NCBI RefSeq assembly: GCF_036924595.1 | Contig: NZ_JAZHRV010000001.1 | Location: forward strand, 7,219,501-7,283,500 | Direction: 5' to 3' | DNA: 64,000 nucleotides | Source: Bradyrhizobium algeriense | GTDB lineage: Bacteria; Pseudomonadota; Alphaproteobacteria; Rhizobiales; Xanthobacteraceae | Part shown: positions 42,401-49,325 of the stretch, piece after piece | Position numbering within the stretch: position 1 is the first letter of the stretch | Layout of the letters: every line of letters begins with the position of its first letter | Translations under genes and position numbers: made by a program | The notes under the pieces: model-generated | Database searches by the model: none | Told to the model about the DNA's origin: nothing | The model's input: the letters and a program-made list of their open reading frames with translations, nothing else

Positions 42401-43066
42401 ATGCTGACGGTTCATCATCTCAACAATTCCCGCTCGCAGCGCGTGCTGTGGCTGCTCGAAGAGCTCGGTGTTCCCTACGAGATCGTCCGCTATCAGCGCC
42501 AGCCGGACATGCGGGCGCCGAAGGAGCTGCGCGCCATTCATCCGCTCGGCAAATCGCCCGTCATTACCGACAATGGCAACACCATCGCCGAGTCCGGCGC
42601 GATCTGCGAATACATCATCGGCACCTATGGCAATGGCCGCCTGATCCCGCCGCCGAACACGCCGGAGCGGCTGCGCTACACCTATTGGCTGCACTATGCC
42701 GAAGGCTCGGCGATGTCGCCGCTGCTGCTGAAGCTGCTGTTCACGCTGATGCCGAAGCGCGCGCCGGCCTTGCTGCGGCCGCTGGTGCGCAAGGTCTCCA
42801 ACACGGCGCTGACCACGTTGGTCAATCCGCAGCTCAAGCAGCACATGGATTATTGGGAGGGCGAGCTGGCAAAAAGCGAATGGTTCGCCGGCAGTGAATT
42901 CACCGGCGCCGACATCCAGATGAGCTTTCCGCTGGAAGCCGCCGCGGCACGTGGCGGGCTGGAGGTGGGTCATCCCAAGGCGATGGCGTTTCTCGAACGC
43001 ATTCACGCCCGGCCGGCCTATGCGCGCGCGCTGGAAAAGGGCGGGCCGTATGTGATCGGGCGGTAA
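42401..43066 (+). CDS. glutathione S-transferase-like protein
   Basis: The 221-residue protein has an N-terminal thioredoxin-like domain (LTVHHLNNSRSQRVLWLL, KSPVITDNGNTIAESGAI with the glutathione-binding E-S pair) and a C-terminal all-helical domain. The length and motifs fit the common soluble GST fold. Substrates are unknown. It is divergent from the DUF2239 gene and lies upstream of the accessory peptidase operon on the same strand. Confidence 0.92.
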   Translation: MLTVHHLNNSRSQRVLWLLEELGVPYEIVRYQRQPDMRAPKELRAIHPLGKSPVITDNGNTIAESGAICEYIIGTYGNGRLIPPPNTPERLRYTYWLHYAEGSAMSPLLLKLLFTLMPKRAPALLRPLVRKVSNTALTTLVNPQLKQHMDYWEGELAKSEWFAGSEFTGADIQMSFPLEAAAARGGLEVGHPKAMAFLERIHARPAYARALEKGGPYVIGR

Positions 43067-43117
43067 CCACCTGGAATTGCGCTACGTCAGAGGCGCGCTG
43101 GTGAAGGAGCGCGATCA

Positions 43118-43339
43118 ATGACCGTCGACGTTGACCCGGGTTGGTTATCTAAACGGACTGCGTTCCCCGAAGCGTTCGCCAATTCTGCGTCGTTATGGCC
43201 CAAGAACTGCTTGCGAAGAATGCTGGCCAAATTGTTTGAACTGGAGATATGCTATTCCAAGTTGTGTGACGCGCAACCAGTTGAAGAGCGCGTCGGGCTG
43301 GTGCGACTGTCTGAAGACATAATCGAAGGAACTAAATAG
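43118..43339 (+). CDS. small unknown protein, first gene of the peptidase/MBL operon
   Basis: The 73-residue frame has a good ribosome-binding site (AAGGAG 9 bases before ATG 43118) and ends 11 bp before the peptidase gene. The predicted protein is mostly helical with the segment LAKLFELEICYSKLCDAQPV and an acidic end (VRLSEDIIEG). No signal peptide or known family was recognised. Its placement suggests an accessory or control role for the two enzymes that follow; it could be an inhibitor, but that is a guess. Confidence 0.55.
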   Translation: MTVDVDPGWLSKRTAFPEAFANSASLWPKNCLRRMLAKLFELEICYSKLCDAQPVEERVGLVRLSEDIIEGTK

Positions 43340-43350
43340 CGGGGGGTCCA

Positions 43351-45363
43351 GTGACTGCGCCCAATTTCATTCCAGATCCAATTTCAAGACGCATTAGAAT
43401 TTTTTCATTCGATCCCGGTCTGGCCAGCCAATACGATATGGCCGGAATCGGAGAAATTACGATCAAAGTTCCGTGGGAAGAACTGCAGCGCGGTCCGATC
43501 GGGGAGTACATCGAGGTTATCGACGTTGATCACGCCAGCGGAGTTTTGTACCGGCCCGTCGATCTCAGTGATCCCAAGCTGCTTGCACAGGATGGCTTAG
43601 CGCCCTCCGAGTCTAATCCCCAATTTCATCAACAGATGGTCTACGCAGTTGCGATGACCACCATCGGACATTTCGAGCGCGCGCTTGGCAGGGTCGCCCT
43701 CTGGTCCGCCCACCGCAAGCGCTATCCAGACGGCGGCTACGACGAATACTTCGTCCGGAGACTGCGCATATATCCGCATGCGCTGCGCGACCGGAACGCC
43801 TACTACAGTCCCGAGAAGAAAGCGTTGTTGTTCGGCTATTTTCCAGTGGAAATCAAAGACGAATTCAACGCACCCGGCACCATGATCTTCACGTGCCTCT
43901 CACACGATATCATTGCGCATGAGACGACCCATGCGCTGCTCGACGGAGTGCACCCGCGCTTCAACGAACCCGTCAACGTGGACGTGCTTGCCTTCCACGA
44001 AGCATTTGCCGATATCGTGGCACTATTCCAGCATTTCGCTTATCCCGGAGTGCTGCGCGACCAGATATCCCGCACCCGCGGCAATCTTGCCAATGAGAAT
44101 ATGCTCGCCCAACTGGCCCAGCAATTCGGACGCGCCGCAGGTCGCGGGGGCGCGTTGCGTGACGCGCTCGGCAGAAAGAATGAAAAAACCGGCAAATGGG
44201 AGCCGCTACCGCCCGATGCCAACGCACTAGAAAGAATCTCCGAACCGCACGATCGCGGAGCTGTGCTCGTGGCAGCGGTATTCGGCGCCTTCTCGAAGGT
44301 CTATCGGGCGCGCACGTTGGATCTCTTCAGAATCGCGACAGAAGGCACCGGCGTGTTGCGCGAGGGTGATATTCATCCGGATCTGGCGAAACGCCTCGCC
44401 GAAGAGGCGGCCCGAATCGCATCGTACATACTGCAGATGTGCATCCGGGCAATCGACTACTGCCCACCGGTCGACATCACATTCGGCGATTATCTGCGGG
44501 GCATCATTACGGCTGACTACGACCTGAATCCAGACGACGAATTCGGGTATCGGCTGGCGTTCGTGGAAAGCTTTCGGCAATGGGGAATCCATCCGCGCGG
44601 TATGCGGAGCATGTCCATCGAAAGCTTGATGTGGCCGACAGGCGAGGAAGCGATGCAGGACGAGGACGTCCCAATAGATCCCGCGGAATTGAAATCACTC
44701 TTCGAAGAACTCCAAGAGACCGATGCGCCAGACTCTCCTGGAAAAAGGAGGAAGGCCCGGTCCCCCAAGGACCACCTCAAGCCCTGGCACCTGGACAGCG
44801 ATCGTTTCAAGACTTGGCAGGGCATCGACGAAAATGCCCGGGTGCTGTGGGCATGGCTGGTCAAGGGCAAAGGCGAAAGGTTTGCGAAGGCGGCCGGCAT
44901 CATCCTTGATAATAGAGATGGTCCTGTTCCCGCCACAGTGTTTCGCCCCGTCGAAGCATCCGAAGGGCCTGCTCAGGTGGAGGTGCATTCGGTCCGGACT
45001 GCCCTTCGGCGTACCGCGAAGGGAGCGACGGCAAATGTCCTGGTCGTCGAGATAACGCAGCGACGTCGCGGATACTTCGATCCTCAAAAACAAAAGGAAA
45101 TGGATAGTCGCCGCAGCATTCCCAAGGATGAGGAAGGCGACTTCCGATACCGCGCCGGCTGCACTTTGCTGATTGATCCCGCGAGCATGACCGTCCGGCG
45201 GGTCATCAGGACAGCCGGAACGATCGCGGATAATAACGAACTCGAACGGCAACGGCGGTTTTTGGTGGATGGAGGACTGGAGCCCAACAATGCCTACTCG
45301 CCGGCCGTGAGCGTGCTGCGTTCAAAAGAGCCTTTTGCCATCCTGCACAGGCACGGAGGCTGA
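43351..45363 (+). CDS. cytoplasmic gluzincin-type zinc peptidase, unknown family
   Basis: The 670-residue protein starts at GTG 43351 behind a GGGGGG ribosome-binding site. It has the zinc motif HETTH at 190-194 and a second-shell HEAFADI whose glutamate (217) is the likely third ligand, 27 residues after the first histidine as in thermolysin-like enzymes. EPHDRGAVLVAAVFGAF near 290 resembles the later catalytic-histidine region of that clan. A basic linker near 460 leads to a C-terminal domain of about 190 residues without recognised relatives. No signal peptide or membrane segment is seen, unlike classical secreted relatives. The MBL gene follows 1 bp later. Confidence 0.72.
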   Translation: MTAPNFIPDPISRRIRIFSFDPGLASQYDMAGIGEITIKVPWEELQRGPIGEYIEVIDVDHASGVLYRPVDLSDPKLLAQDGLAPSESNPQFHQQMVYAVAMTTIGHFERALGRVALWSAHRKRYPDGGYDEYFVRRLRIYPHALRDRNAYYSPEKKALLFGYFPVEIKDEFNAPGTMIFTCLSHDIIAHETTHALLDGVHPRFNEPVNVDVLAFHEAFADIVALFQHFAYPGVLRDQISRTRGNLANENMLAQLAQQFGRAAGRGGALRDALGRKNEKTGKWEPLPPDANALERISEPHDRGAVLVAAVFGAFSKVYRARTLDLFRIATEGTGVLREGDIHPDLAKRLAEEAARIASYILQMCIRAIDYCPPVDITFGDYLRGIITADYDLNPDDEFGYRLAFVESFRQWGIHPRGMRSMSIESLMWPTGEEAMQDEDVPIDPAELKSLFEELQETDAPDSPGKRRKARSPKDHLKPWHLDSDRFKTWQGIDENARVLWAWLVKGKGERFAKAAGIILDNRDGPVPATVFRPVEASEGPAQVEVHSVRTALRRTAKGATANVLVVEITQRRRGYFDPQKQKEMDSRRSIPKDEEGDFRYRAGCTLLIDPASMTVRRVIRTAGTIADNNELERQRRFLVDGGLEPNNAYSPAVSVLRSKEPFAILHRHGG

Positions 45364-45364
45364 C

Positions 45365-46960
45365 ATGGCCCGTCAACCAAAGAAGACTGCTGGAAAAAAA
45401 TCCCCGAAACGGTCAACCAAGAAAACAGCGACAAACAACAGGCCGGAAGCAAACTTGATGCCTCCCAAAGGAGGCGTGGCGATTAGAATGTACCGGATTG
45501 GTCATGGCGACTGCTTTTTGCTGGCCTTCAGCGGCAAAGAAAAACCGATCTTTGTGCTGATCGATTGCGGATACAAGCCCGGTTCTCCCAAGTTCATCAA
45601 CGATGTCACCACGCCCGATAAAGTTGTCGCAGATATCAAGGCTGTCACTGGTGGCCATATCGATGTTGCGGTTATTACCCATGAGCATCAAGACCACGTC
45701 AATGCGATCACAAAGTCGAGGTTTGACGGCTTTACGATCGGCCAGACCTGGTTCGCGTGGACCGAAAGCGAGGACGACAAGCTGGCGAAACGTCTGCGAA
45801 AAAATTATGGTGATCGCCTCAAGACATTGGTTGCCGCTAGCATCAGGCTTGCTGCAACCAACCCGTCGCTCGCACTTAAGATGAACGAGTACATCGCTCT
45901 GGCAGTTGGCGGCGAGCAGCCCGCAGGCTCCAGTATCCCAAACGCTTTCTCGGCGGCCGGCTCGTGGACCAACAAGGACGCGATGAAGCTTTTCCGCGAT
46001 TTATCGCAATCCGAAGTAAAGTGCCTCTATCCTCACAAAGAGATCATTAAATTGCCGGGGGCGGAATCGGTGCGGGTGTTCGCGCTGGGACCACCCTACG
46101 ACGAAACCGCACTCAAGGATCTCGACCCTCATGATGGTGAAGGTTTTCCGCAGCAAGGCCGACACATGGCTGCATCATTGGCGTCGTTCGGCGCTGCGGT
46201 CAATGCGGCCCCCGGCTCCGTCGTGGCGGGACCGTTCTCAGCTCGCCACGCGGTTTCGATCGATAAGCTTTCGAAAGAGCTGGAGTTGCAGTCCTGGTTC
46301 GACAAGAACTACGGTCTCAAAAGAACGGCGTCGAACCATTTTAATCCCGAGCAGGATGAAGTTCCGGCAAATGCGGATTTTCGCAGGATTGACCATGACT
46401 GGCTGCAATCGGCGGAGACCCTTGCCCTTGCTATGGGCAATGACACCAACAATGCGAGTCTTGTCCTGGCGTTCGAACTGGGAAAGGGCGGCAAGGTCCT
46501 GCTATTCGCGGCCGATGCACAACGTGGAAACTGGGCGTCATGGGCCGCCGGATCATTCAAGGATGGCAACGAAACGGTCGAGGTACGCGATCTTCTCGGC
46601 CGAACGGTACTTTACAAGACCGGTCATCACGGAAGTCACAATGCGACGCTGAGCGGAGACGCATCTTCGGCCACTCCAAACTTGAGCTGGCTGGGACGGG
46701 GCGGCCACTCGAGTGAGTTTACCGCCATGATAACTGCTGTGAGAGCTTGGGCTATCCAGCCGACTGTAGGCTGGGACCATCCGCTGAAATCGATCAGGGA
46801 GGCCCTGCTGGACAAGTGTTCAGGCCGAGTCTTTCAAACCGATACCGATTTTACGAAGATGGTGCCGCTTGACGGAACTAGTAAGCGCCCATGGGCGGCA
46901 TTTCAAGCGCGATCAACTGGCGGAGAATTGTACTTCGACTATCATATCGAGCCCGGCTAA
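45365..46960 (+). CDS. ComEC-like metallo-beta-lactamase-fold hydrolase
   Basis: The 531-residue protein starts at ATG 45365, with GGAGG inside the end of the peptidase gene and only 1 bp between stop and start. A lysine-rich N terminus (residues about 2-22) precedes the fold. The metal motif is HEHQDH at 106-111, later FAADAQRG supplies an aspartate and HHGSH at 421-425 another histidine, the pattern of the ComEC/Rec2 branch. It lacks ComEC's membrane domain. The substrate could be nucleic acid or a nucleotide; no export signal is seen. It is the third gene of the operon. Confidence 0.75.
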   Translation: MARQPKKTAGKKSPKRSTKKTATNNRPEANLMPPKGGVAIRMYRIGHGDCFLLAFSGKEKPIFVLIDCGYKPGSPKFINDVTTPDKVVADIKAVTGGHIDVAVITHEHQDHVNAITKSRFDGFTIGQTWFAWTESEDDKLAKRLRKNYGDRLKTLVAASIRLAATNPSLALKMNEYIALAVGGEQPAGSSIPNAFSAAGSWTNKDAMKLFRDLSQSEVKCLYPHKEIIKLPGAESVRVFALGPPYDETALKDLDPHDGEGFPQQGRHMAASLASFGAAVNAAPGSVVAGPFSARHAVSIDKLSKELELQSWFDKNYGLKRTASNHFNPEQDEVPANADFRRIDHDWLQSAETLALAMGNDTNNASLVLAFELGKGGKVLLFAADAQRGNWASWAAGSFKDGNETVEVRDLLGRTVLYKTGHHGSHNATLSGDASSATPNLSWLGRGGHSSEFTAMITAVRAWAIQPTVGWDHPLKSIREALLDKCSGRVFQTDTDFTKMVPLDGTSKRPWAAFQARSTGGELYFDYHIEPG

Positions 46961-46996
46961 GAAGGGCCGATCTCGTCAATCGCCTGCAATATCGGA

Positions 46997-48391
46997 TCAC
47001 GGCTGCACCGCCGCGATGACTTCCTTCACCAGCCGGGCAACGCCGCGCATGTCGCCGGTCGGATCGACGCTGTCCCCGAGCCGCACCACGACGAGGCGCT
47101 GCGACGGCATGATCACGATGCGCTGGCCGAGAAGGCCGGACGCGAAAAACGAATCGCCGGGCATGCCTAGATGGACGCGGCCCCTGGCATCGGGATGATC
47201 GCTGCGGTTGGTGTAGAACCCCGCGGCGTAATCGCTGTCCAATGTAGCTGCGGCGCAGAAGTCCACCCAGTCTTCGTGAAGGATCCGCTTTCCGCCGACC
47301 ACGCCGTCGTTCAGATAGAGCAGGCCGAATTTTGCCCAGTCGCGCGCGCTCGCGAGCATGTAGTTTGCACCCTGCAACGTGCCGACGCCGTCGAACTCGA
47401 GTGTGACGGTGCGCATGCCGAGCGGACTGAACAATTCGCGCCAGGCAAAAGCGAGCGTCCGCTCGGGTCCCCCGGCGGCATCCCTGATGATACGCGCGAG
47501 GATCTGCGTGGTGGCGCTGGAATAGTGAAATCGCTTGCCGATCGGCGCGATCAGCCGTGTATTGACGGCATAAGCGGAAGTATCGTCTTCCAGAAACATC
47601 CGGCTCGATCGATCGAAGCCGGAATTGGTCTCGTCGAGATCGAGGCCCGAGGTCATGCGCATGAGATGCTCGACCTCAATCTCGCGGCGTGGATCCTCAC
47701 TGGCGCGCCATTCCGGGATCGGTGCGGGCATCGACGGCGTGACCAGGCCCTGCTGCGTCAATACGCCGATCAACGCGTTGATTACCGATTTGGTCATGGA
47801 AAAGCCGAACAGCGGCGTCTCCACACCGATGCCGGGCGCATAACGCTCGGCAATCACCTTGCCGTCATGCACCACCACGACGGCCTTGGTTCGCCGGAAC
47901 GGAGGCGTGGCAGGTTCTTCGAAAGCATGGTCGAGCGCGGCCTTCAGCGCGGGATCGGTCGGTTCGACTACGGCGGGCCCGGCAATCTCCGGCAAGAGCG
48001 GCGGTGTCTTCGACACCCTCAGCGTCTCGACATCGTTCTTCAGCAGATACGGCTCTTTCGCGCCGTGCTGCTCGACGCAGCCGAGCCCGTCATGGAATGA
48101 TGCGCGGCCCCTGAACAGGCCGAGCGTCGAGGCCTCGACGGCTCTCGCCTTGCGATCGACCTCGAACTTCATGACATGACGCAAGCGGCGGAAGCCCGGC
48201 CGATCCATCGTTTCGGCGAATACGGCCTGCGGATCGAGGCCGGAAACAAAGGCCTTCGTGCAAACCATGTGCGCGACGGAGCCCGTGGCGAGGCGAACAG
48301 TGCGGTCGGGCCGGAAGTGCACGCCCAGCCCGGTGAGCGCAGCCAACACGACGGCGACGGTAGCGACGAGGATCCATTTCCACGAAGTCAC
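46997..48391 (-). CDS. serine hydrolase of the beta-lactamase/S12 family, membrane anchored
   Basis: The 464-residue protein from GTG 48391 (GGAG 9 bases upstream) has one N-terminal membrane helix and then a penicillin-binding-like domain with the nucleophile motif SMTK, the YSS tyrosine motif and a late HLG segment (VHLGMPGDS). Such enzymes include esterases, D-amino-acid peptidases and nylon-oligomer hydrolases; the substrate here is unknown. The frame to 48502 adds an Arg/Cys-rich stretch that is not translated in homologues as far as can be judged. Confidence 0.85.
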   Translation of the reverse strand: MTSWKWILVATVAVVLAALTGLGVHFRPDRTVRLATGSVAHMVCTKAFVSGLDPQAVFAETMDRPGFRRLRHVMKFEVDRKARAVEASTLGLFRGRASFHDGLGCVEQHGAKEPYLLKNDVETLRVSKTPPLLPEIAGPAVVEPTDPALKAALDHAFEEPATPPFRRTKAVVVVHDGKVIAERYAPGIGVETPLFGFSMTKSVINALIGVLTQQGLVTPSMPAPIPEWRASEDPRREIEVEHLMRMTSGLDLDETNSGFDRSSRMFLEDDTSAYAVNTRLIAPIGKRFHYSSATTQILARIIRDAAGGPERTLAFAWRELFSPLGMRTVTLEFDGVGTLQGANYMLASARDWAKFGLLYLNDGVVGGKRILHEDWVDFCAAATLDSDYAAGFYTNRSDHPDARGRVHLGMPGDSFFASGLLGQRIVIMPSQRLVVVRLGDSVDPTGDMRGVARLVKEVIAAVQP

Positions 48392-48428
48392 GCAGTTCTC
48401 CGGCGTTGCGCGGCGGCCGCTTTCGTTT

Positions 48429-49325
48429 CTATCGCGACGTCGGCGCCGCACCCACCGAGGGCAGCGCCTGCACGGTGACGTCGGGTGGCGGCACGTCGTC
48501 ATCTGGCACGAAGAAATCCGACATCAGCGGCACCGAGCGATCGACACGGTAGTGCTCGAAGTCCCTGACGCCAGAGGCGTACAGTACTTTGTCGTCGATG
48601 CAGAACTGCCCGGTGAATTCCCGCGCCGGTCTTGTCAGAATGGCGTGCGCGGCATCGCCCATGATCTCGGGCGTGCGGCTGGCGCGCATCACGGCCTCGC
48701 CGCCGAGCAGGTTGCCGACCGCGGCGGTCGCGATGGTGGTGCGCGGCCACAGCGCGTTGACCGCCACACCAGCGGATCTCAATTCGCCTGACAGCCCCAG
48801 CACGCACATGCTCATGCCGAACTTCGCCATCGTGTAGGCGGTGGAATGCTCGAACCATTTTGCCTTCATGTCGAGCGGCGGCGACAGCATCAAGATGTGT
48901 GGATTGGCCGCCTTCTTCAGATGCGGGATGCAATATTTCGACACCATGAAGGTGCCCCGGGTGTTAATGCCCATCATCAGATCGAACCGCTTCATGTCGG
49001 TTGCTTGCGAGTTGGTCAGGCTGATGGCGCTGGCGTTGTTGACGCAGATATCGATGCCGCCGAATTCGGCGACGGTCTGCTCGATCGCCGCGATCACCTG
49101 CGCCTCGTCGCGGATATCGCACAGCACCGGCAGCGCCTTGCCGCCGGCGGCGCGAATTTCCTCCGCCGCGGTGTAGATGGTGCCCTTCAGTTTCGGATGC
49201 GGCTCCGCGGTCTTCGCCGCAATAGCAACATTGGCGCCGTCACGCGCGGCGCGGAGTGCGATGGCCAGTCCGATGCCGCGGCTGGCGCCGGATACGAACA
49301 GCGTCTTGCCTTTGAGGGATGTCAT
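48429..49325 (-). CDS. short-chain dehydrogenase/reductase, HSDL2-like
   Basis: The 298-residue SDR begins SLKGKTLFVSGASRGIG, with NNASAISL, a catalytic YTMAK and a preceding serine (LMLSPP). The insert AKTAEPHPKLKGTIYTAAEEI after the first strand is typical of the group that includes human HSDL2. The C terminus is Pro-rich and lacks the sterol-carrier domain of the human protein. It is on the same strand as the serine hydrolase, 37 bp upstream of it, so the two may share a transcript. Confidence 0.88.
   Translation of the reverse strand: MTSLKGKTLFVSGASRGIGLAIALRAARDGANVAIAAKTAEPHPKLKGTIYTAAEEIRAAGGKALPVLCDIRDEAQVIAAIEQTVAEFGGIDICVNNASAISLTNSQATDMKRFDLMMGINTRGTFMVSKYCIPHLKKAANPHILMLSPPLDMKAKWFEHSTAYTMAKFGMSMCVLGLSGELRSAGVAVNALWPRTTIATAAVGNLLGGEAVMRASRTPEIMGDAAHAILTRPAREFTGQFCIDDKVLYASGVRDFEHYRVDRSVPLMSDFFVPDDDVPPPDVTVQALPSVGAAPTSR

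Follow-up and report, generated by a model that had tools for sequence, protein, structure and literature searches.

What a zinc peptidase with no visible export signal does beside a metallo-beta-lactamase (MBL)-fold protein is the question raised by a compact block in the genome of Bradyrhizobium algeriense. The block lies in a stretch of 64,000 nucleotides, referred to here as the window (assembly GCF_036924595.1, contig NZ_JAZHRV010000001.1, positions 7,219,501 to 7,283,500 of the forward strand), and all positions are counted from its first letter. A first-pass annotation, made from the letters alone, had described positions 43118 to 46960 as an operon of three genes and as a candidate undescribed conflict module combining a protease with a putative nuclease. 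In the analysis presented below, the peptidase and MBL genes form a conserved, accessory and often defence-associated protease-nuclease unit, in which the nuclease is predicted. We put at roughly 55% the probability that this unit is a module for cell-autonomous, probably abortive, defence in which the peptidase would activate a masked pro-nuclease.

The peptidase and MBL genes are conserved as a pair

In the window, an open reading frame (ORF) of 73 aa (43118-43339) ends 11 bp before the peptidase gene (43351-45363, 670 aa, GTG start), which ends 1 bp before the MBL gene (45365-46960, 531 aa, ATG start); these coordinates, lengths and gaps agree with the first-pass annotation. The 73-aa ORF, which had been counted as a third gene, has among the loci compared a single relative, in the B. 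algeriense locus L035, where the same ATG is followed after codon 4 by a 1-bp indel that breaks the frame. It is therefore not supported as a gene, and the three-gene operon was dropped in favour of a two-gene unit defined by the ORFs of the window and their relatives.

In order to compare this unit across genomes, GTDB contigs were scanned with 18 peptidases, 283 of the 292 stretches returned were confirmed, and the best 80 were retained as loci. By record title, these 80 span Alpha-, Gamma- and Deltaproteobacteria, Acidobacteria, Gemmatimonadetes, Bacteroidetes, Chloroflexi, Planctomycetes, Verrucomicrobia and archaea. Downstream of the peptidase, 78 of the 80 loci have an MBL, so that the adjacency of homologues elsewhere, which had been proposed as a check on the system, was borne out. 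It is a separate gene on the same strand in 77 loci and lies in one frame with the peptidase in L079, although a frameshift in that metagenome-assembled genome might also explain this arrangement; in L036 and L087 the contig stops 71 and 480 bases beyond the peptidase frame, which in L087 is short (501 aa). Pairwise distances among peptidases and among MBL proteins are correlated (r = 0.794 over 76 loci, with L079 and L039 dropped), against at most 0.097 in 2000 shuffles, and both proteins have the same nearest neighbour in 42 of the 76 loci. A functional link between the two genes is very likely.

A homologue search at E 0.001 yielded at least 7997 peptidases, and at least 2036 MBL proteins among 7997 scored, counts that are not comparable with each other. 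One locus has another such pair, distant but with the gene order unchanged, at L043:18073-21458, about 4 kb from the first and on the other strand. No relatives were found among viral contigs in the peptidase and MBL scans, and phage records gave two partial matches. A 43%-identical partial peptidase lies in MT836994.1:4534-5889, a 9.5-kb unannotated record titled "Bacteriophage sp." that may be bacterial.

Predicted folds and active sites

Structure prediction and fold matching assign the peptidase to the M36/M4 (fungalysin/thermolysin) fold. In the model of the MBL protein, residues 35-531 make up one MBL domain with long inserted stretches, matching the ComEC-type fold (9ic4) in model comparison with about 240 residues unaligned. 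The features of the block are as follows.

43069-46996, no strand: accessory block between a glutathione S-transferase (GST) gene and a serine hydrolase gene; sister genomes L139, L145 and L144 lack it at the corresponding site
43351-45363, +: peptidase gene, 670 aa, gluzincin of predicted M36/M4 fold; ORF, predicted fold, active site invariant in 65/65 relatives
43387-44625, +: peptidase catalytic domain, residues 13-425
43918-43932, +: HETTH zinc motif, residues 190-194; H190, E191 and H194 in 65/65
43996-44013, +: HEAFAD, residues 216-221, with E217 and D221; 65/65
44248-44250, +: H300; 65/65; presumed counterpart of the thermolysin catalytic His, proposed by motif
44668-45360, +: peptidase C-terminal domain, residues ~440-670, from the model; barely covered by fold matches
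45365-46960, +: MBL-fold gene, 531 aa, predicted ComEC-type nuclease fold
45680-45697, +: HEHQDH metal motif, residues 106-111; H106, H108, D110 and H111 in 68/68 relatives
45698-46072, +: MBL long stretch 1, residues 112-236, mostly helical; from spacing in 68 relatives and the model
46097-46447, +: MBL long stretch 2, residues 245-361, proposed gating loop; from spacing in 68 relatives, low model confidence
46232-46237, +: Pro290-Phe291, proposed cleavage or plug site; Phe in 68/68, Pro-Phe in 65/68
46514-46516, +: D384, metal-site Asp; 68/68
46625-46639, +: HHGSH motif, residues 421-425; H421, H422 and S424 in 68/68, H425 in 62/68

The four motifs of the first-pass annotation (HETTH, HEAFAD, HEHQDH and HHGSH) are all present, and the invariance of the active-site residues across 65 peptidases and 68 MBL proteins indicates that they are more than chance occurrences. 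In the peptidase, E217 is presumably the third zinc ligand, its role and that of D221 being taken from thermolysin anatomy; D384 of the MBL protein is likewise what we take to be the metal-site Asp of MBL anatomy.

The peptidase shares HExxH and the downstream Glu, within the family fold, with M4/M36 enzymes. Unlike the secreted members of those families, it has no visible export signal and carries its own C-terminal domain, and an MBL gene lies beside it. The lack of an export signal had been noted at first pass, and, judged by eye, neither the peptidase nor the MBL protein has an N-terminal hydrophobic stretch; no FTP/PepSY propeptide was matched in the 65 relatives. The possibility that the peptidase belongs to a characterised housekeeping family found no support, the window protein matching no Pfam, NCBIfam or PADLOC family. 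PF01447 and PF02128, to which it has no match, reach at best E 0.0075 and 0.096 among the 65 relatives, and searching PDB sequences with a profile of the peptidases returned nothing up to E 1. The C-terminal domain, modelled as a helix followed by strand-strand-helix-strand-strand-helix, was not named by a Pfam scan of the 65 peptidases.

Two longer architectures occur among the relatives. Tandem-duplicated peptidases of about 1125-1173 aa (P0018, P0020, P0028, P0042 and 15 others among the 120 homologues listed) have lost the Glu of HExxH in the first copy in 12 of 19 cases (HQ, HS, HT or HN), kept it in five and lack the motif in two, whereas the second copy has this Glu in 19 of 19; one tandem homologue, P0024, passes PF01447 (28.4 bits against a gathering threshold of 22.4). 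In six of eight long forms tested (L033, L067, L084, L086, L088 and L114), a subtilisin (Peptidase_S8) domain is fused N-terminally to the zinc peptidase, and the MBL gene is still found downstream.

The MBL protein resembles the MBL domain of ComEC in fold and metal motifs but differs in having about 240 residues beyond the aligned core and, in the model, no membrane competence domain. A PDB search with the MBL profile aligned mainly the N-terminal metal-motif region (best E 1.4e-4). Long stretch 1 spans 125 aa in the window and 110-159 aa in the 68 relatives, and probably contains residues additional to ComEC. Long stretch 2 (117 aa in the window, 90-128 aa in the relatives) is modelled largely with low confidence, the predicted local distance difference test score (pLDDT) falling below 50 at residues 267-274, 281-292 and 330-332. 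Within the segments of pLDDT below 50 tested (22-25 and these three), P290 and F291 are the sole columns conserved at 60% or more, and Pro290-Phe291, in a loop predicted to be disordered, is therefore a candidate cut site. The Lys-rich N terminus noted at first pass is not a family trait: a tail of at least 15 aa is present in 36 of the 68 relatives and contains at least 30% Lys plus Arg in only 12 of those, and the idea of a general Lys-rich DNA-binding tail was dropped for this reason.

The block is accessory in Bradyrhizobium

The peptidase and MBL genes, with GC fractions of 0.58 and 0.55, fall below both the upstream GST gene (0.64) and the window as a whole (0.628). This lower GC content had been recognised at first pass, as had the position between the GST gene and a serine hydrolase gene; the latter lies on the opposite strand. 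Sister loci were retrieved with the GST gene, which matched in 77 of 80 genomes searched and returned 30 loci in the genus. One of these is the window itself, L142 stops 100 bases past the GST gene, and the other 28 show no peptidase by blastn within 1.5 kb downstream. In L139 (genome G023) and L145 (G024), 3 bases separate the counterparts of window positions 43068 and 46997, and the junction in L144 joins 43066 to 47001 with 9 bases between. The block flanks are 87 to 203 bases apart in L151, L140, L141 and L150. In seven other sister loci the GST gene is followed by a short-chain dehydrogenase/reductase (SDR) gene, the serine hydrolase gene being absent too. The B. algeriense locus L035 carries the same block at the same site with 97% identity. 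The 3.9-kb block is accessory and most likely an insertion. The serine hydrolase gene itself (window 46997-48502) is also variable, being lost in L035 and the seven sister loci, with the SDR gene at about 48428.

Across 120 related genomes searched, 23 have a peptidase match (the window's own genome included), and the MBL gene adjoins it in 16 of the 23. In G039 the peptidase frame is broken beside an adjoining MBL gene, and in G070 the MBL is shortened and lies beside an ORF that, by eye, resembles a transposase.

Neighbourhoods of the pair include defence genes

Neighbouring genes were clustered over 84 loci, comprising 809 proteins within six positions on either side of the pair. A patatin-like phospholipase cluster adjoins the pair in 16 of the 84 loci, always as the immediate neighbour and in 15 of the 16 on the peptidase strand; in L034 a patatin annotated outside that cluster is encoded on the opposite strand, two genes downstream. 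Clusters of DUF2235/Tle1-like and of ThiF/JAB proteins are present in 8 and 7 loci, respectively. Scanning 73 adjacent proteins identified 15 Patatin, 3 Tle1-like, 3 JAB, 2 SIR2 and 2 ThiF domains.

Seventeen plasmid records, three of them unannotated, were read with 8 to 20 kb of flank. Enrichment near defence genes had been suggested as a further check, and as read from the annotation such genes are named in 10 of the 14 annotated loci. They include a cyclase of the cyclic oligonucleotide-based antiphage signalling system (CBASS; L168 and L172), SIR2 (L033), E1/JAB or multiubiquitin genes (L032, L034, L171 and L175) and MoxR-type systems (L167 and L179). In L169 and L172 the MBL gene is directly followed by DUF1837 and helicase genes, which we take to be HamA and HamB of Hachiman; these DUF1837 and DEAD/DEAH helicase genes (L169:15588-19165 and L172:15586-19163) lie 114 and 130 bp behind a patatin-peptidase-MBL set. 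In two Hymenobacter loci (L032:5571-7964 and L171:9610-11979), the peptidase gene is preceded, at distances of 24 and 15 bp, by a gene for an AAA ATPase with an annotation of double-strand break repair, which is a possible sensor.

Relation to known protease-nuclease pairs

Protease-activated MBL pro-nucleases have already been described: in the main text of that study, trypsin-like proteases of Hachiman and of AVAST (antiviral ATPases/NTPases of the STAND superfamily) cut gating insertions of ComEC-type MBL pro-nucleases, Canu turns on its nuclease through a caspase complex, similar protease-MBL pairs are reported in Lamassu and in defence-associated reverse transcriptases (DRT), and other protease families are mentioned without being named (PMC12799240; Tuck et al. 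2025). The core of the first-pass proposal, a conflict or defence module of protease and putative nuclease, is supported, whereas its description as an undescribed system is too strong, and what would be new here is the metalloprotease partner. The main text of PMC12799240 contains none of the terms 'metalloprotease', 'gluzincin', 'thermolysin', 'M48', 'subtilisin' or 'serine peptidase'. Two surveys of conflict systems (PMC7159879, PMC8195603) mention metallopeptidases, and once a subtilisin beside NucA, and the passages concerned do not describe the pair; a literature search found no description of a metalloprotease-type partner for an MBL pro-nuclease.

Compared with the published gated pairs, the unit agrees in MBL fold, metal site, adjacency and co-evolution, and departs in protease class. 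As in the Hachiman, AVAST, Lamassu and DRT pairs, a ComEC-type MBL gene is paired and co-evolves with a protease gene, long stretches separate the core motifs, one of them with a loop that is here predicted to be disordered, and the loci include defence islands (PMC12799240). Unlike in those pairs, the protease is a zinc peptidase of predicted M36/M4 fold and not trypsin-like, the window protease carries no fusion to a defence protein, its gene precedes that of the MBL protein, the conserved loop residue is Phe instead of Ile, and the MBL protein has 531 aa compared with a 42-kDa HamM (PMC12799240). Canu (CanABC) likewise places its protease gene ahead of the MBL nuclease gene but combines a caspase carrying an Ig-like domain with CanB and has a conserved Gly in its loops, whereas the present unit has a metalloprotease, no conserved third gene and Phe (PMC12799240). 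Similarity to PADLOC LmuA is remote (PDLC03854, E 8.6e-13, over window MBL residues 39-141 only), no LmuB SMC-type gene of Lamassu stands beside the pair among the ORFs in 38-52 kb, and the window MBL scores 25.8 bits to the NCBIfam model NF041809 of AVAST type 1 (Avs1a) against a cut-off of 420.

A proposed mechanism and its alternatives

What we infer from these patterns is a DNase activity, its masking, its release by cleavage, a trigger and a role in phage defence. The MBL protein would be made as an inactive pro-nuclease with a ComEC-type DNase core, its active site masked by extra residues in the two long stretches, of which the second is predicted to be largely disordered. Infection would be sensed by the peptidase itself or by a partner, for which the AAA ATPases, subtilisin domains and lipases that accompany the pair in some relatives are candidates. 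The cytoplasmic M36/M4-type peptidase would then cut the MBL loop, possibly before Phe291, and the freed nuclease would degrade DNA and so stop both cell and phage. Where a patatin or Tle1-like phospholipase is present, it may add membrane damage. More tentatively, and with less confidence than in this mechanism, the unit may represent a third line of immunity by protease-activated nucleases, one driven by a metalloprotease, distributed over many bacterial phyla and archaeal genomes and possessing its own zymogen cascades. In these, subtilisin-peptidase fusions might cut in series ahead of the nuclease, and the first copy of tandem peptidases, where it lacks the catalytic Glu, might act as a pseudo-protease regulator.

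Several observations weigh against this proposal. Some concern the context. The window copy is surrounded by ordinary metabolic genes, four of the 14 annotated plasmid loci (L170, L174, L178 and L180) name no clear defence genes, the L178 pair lying beside cytochrome oxidase and Rubisco genes, and no conserved sensor gene was found beside the pair. At E 1e-10, PADLOC families numbered 71 for 73 adjacent proteins, picked by eye, 68 for 73 farther proteins and none for 73 control proteins. The controls were drawn from arbitrary positions in seven genomes of a single genus, whereas the loci cover many phyla. These figures indicate that the loci are defence-rich, but the expected excess of PADLOC families in adjacent over farther genes was not observed. 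Others concern the pairing: 64 plasmid records match the peptidase and only 26 the MBL, and in 7 of the 23 matched related genomes no MBL was found beside the match. Among these seven, G031 and G053 encode distant full-length peptidases with no MBL within about 6 kb, the rest being a fragment (G038) or very weak matches (G094, G100, G106 and G107).

The remaining points concern the MBL protein. At E 0.001, all 68 MBL proteins score to PADLOC LmuA, 62 to RTasMBL, 47 to Avs1a and 44 to one PDC-M48B model, the matches of the window protein to such defence MBL models being confined to its N-terminal metal-motif region. At that threshold, however, the Avs1a model also gives matches in 51 of the 289 genomes searched from the class, as well as in 9 of 14 control genomes, none exceeding its cut-off in either set, so that these weak scores are not defence-specific. 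The LmuA model at E 1e-20 finds nothing in the window's genome; the one LmuA-like MBL that it finds in 240 genomes of the class was not used as evidence. Where the unaligned residues lie relative to ComEC is itself something we infer, and a Pro preceding Phe may not suit an M4-type enzyme as a cut site. Stretch 1 is modelled mostly as ordered helix, its weakly predicted part having no conserved residue, whereas two disordered insertions are reported for the known gated nucleases (PMC12799240).

Among the alternatives, the one that fares best, albeit unlikely, is a lipid or phosphodiester module, in which the MBL would resemble the phosphorylcholine esterase Pce and act with the patatin or Tle1-like phospholipases, the peptidase activating these hydrolases. 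Slightly less likely again is a reversed logic, in which the peptidase would be the antidote that degrades a constitutively active MBL nuclease, so that phage blockage of host proteolysis or expression would free the nuclease in the manner of a toxin-antitoxin system. The shared operon, gene order and co-evolution fit this logic equally well, and the invariant Phe in a loop predicted to be disordered might mark the protein for degradation, but long stretches in all 68 aligned MBL proteins are better explained as a mask, and the protease-MBL pairs tested so far, as described in the main text of PMC12799240, work by activation. An interbacterial function, in which a secretion system would deliver peptidase, MBL and lipase into other cells, appears improbable. 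Known secretion effectors include Tle1-like and patatin enzymes, the pair in L168 has RHS genes at a distance of about 8 kb, and one upstream protein has a peptidoglycan-binding domain; yet none of the neighbouring genes recurs with the frequency expected of an immunity gene, the pair is also found in Chloroflexi and archaeal genomes, and several island partners are by annotation intracellular defence genes. Finally, the operon might have no part in conflict and serve housekeeping or regulatory proteolysis; the metabolic neighbours in the window and in L178 might speak for this reading, which is nevertheless very improbable given the patchy presence in related genomes, the plasmid carriage, the presence or absence at the window site and the defence-rich neighbourhoods.

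If the pair is indeed a protease-activated pro-nuclease module, the activation of pro-nucleases in bacterial immunity would not be tied to trypsin or caspase partners, and a peptidase class known for secreted enzymes would have been recruited to an intracellular role as well. Besides being compact, the unit is common, with a peptidase that matches no model of the databases searched. On that reading, the pair would offer a simple two-gene case of a general rule, protease plus masked nuclease, and its relatives would make up a large collection of candidate defence loci that lack annotation.

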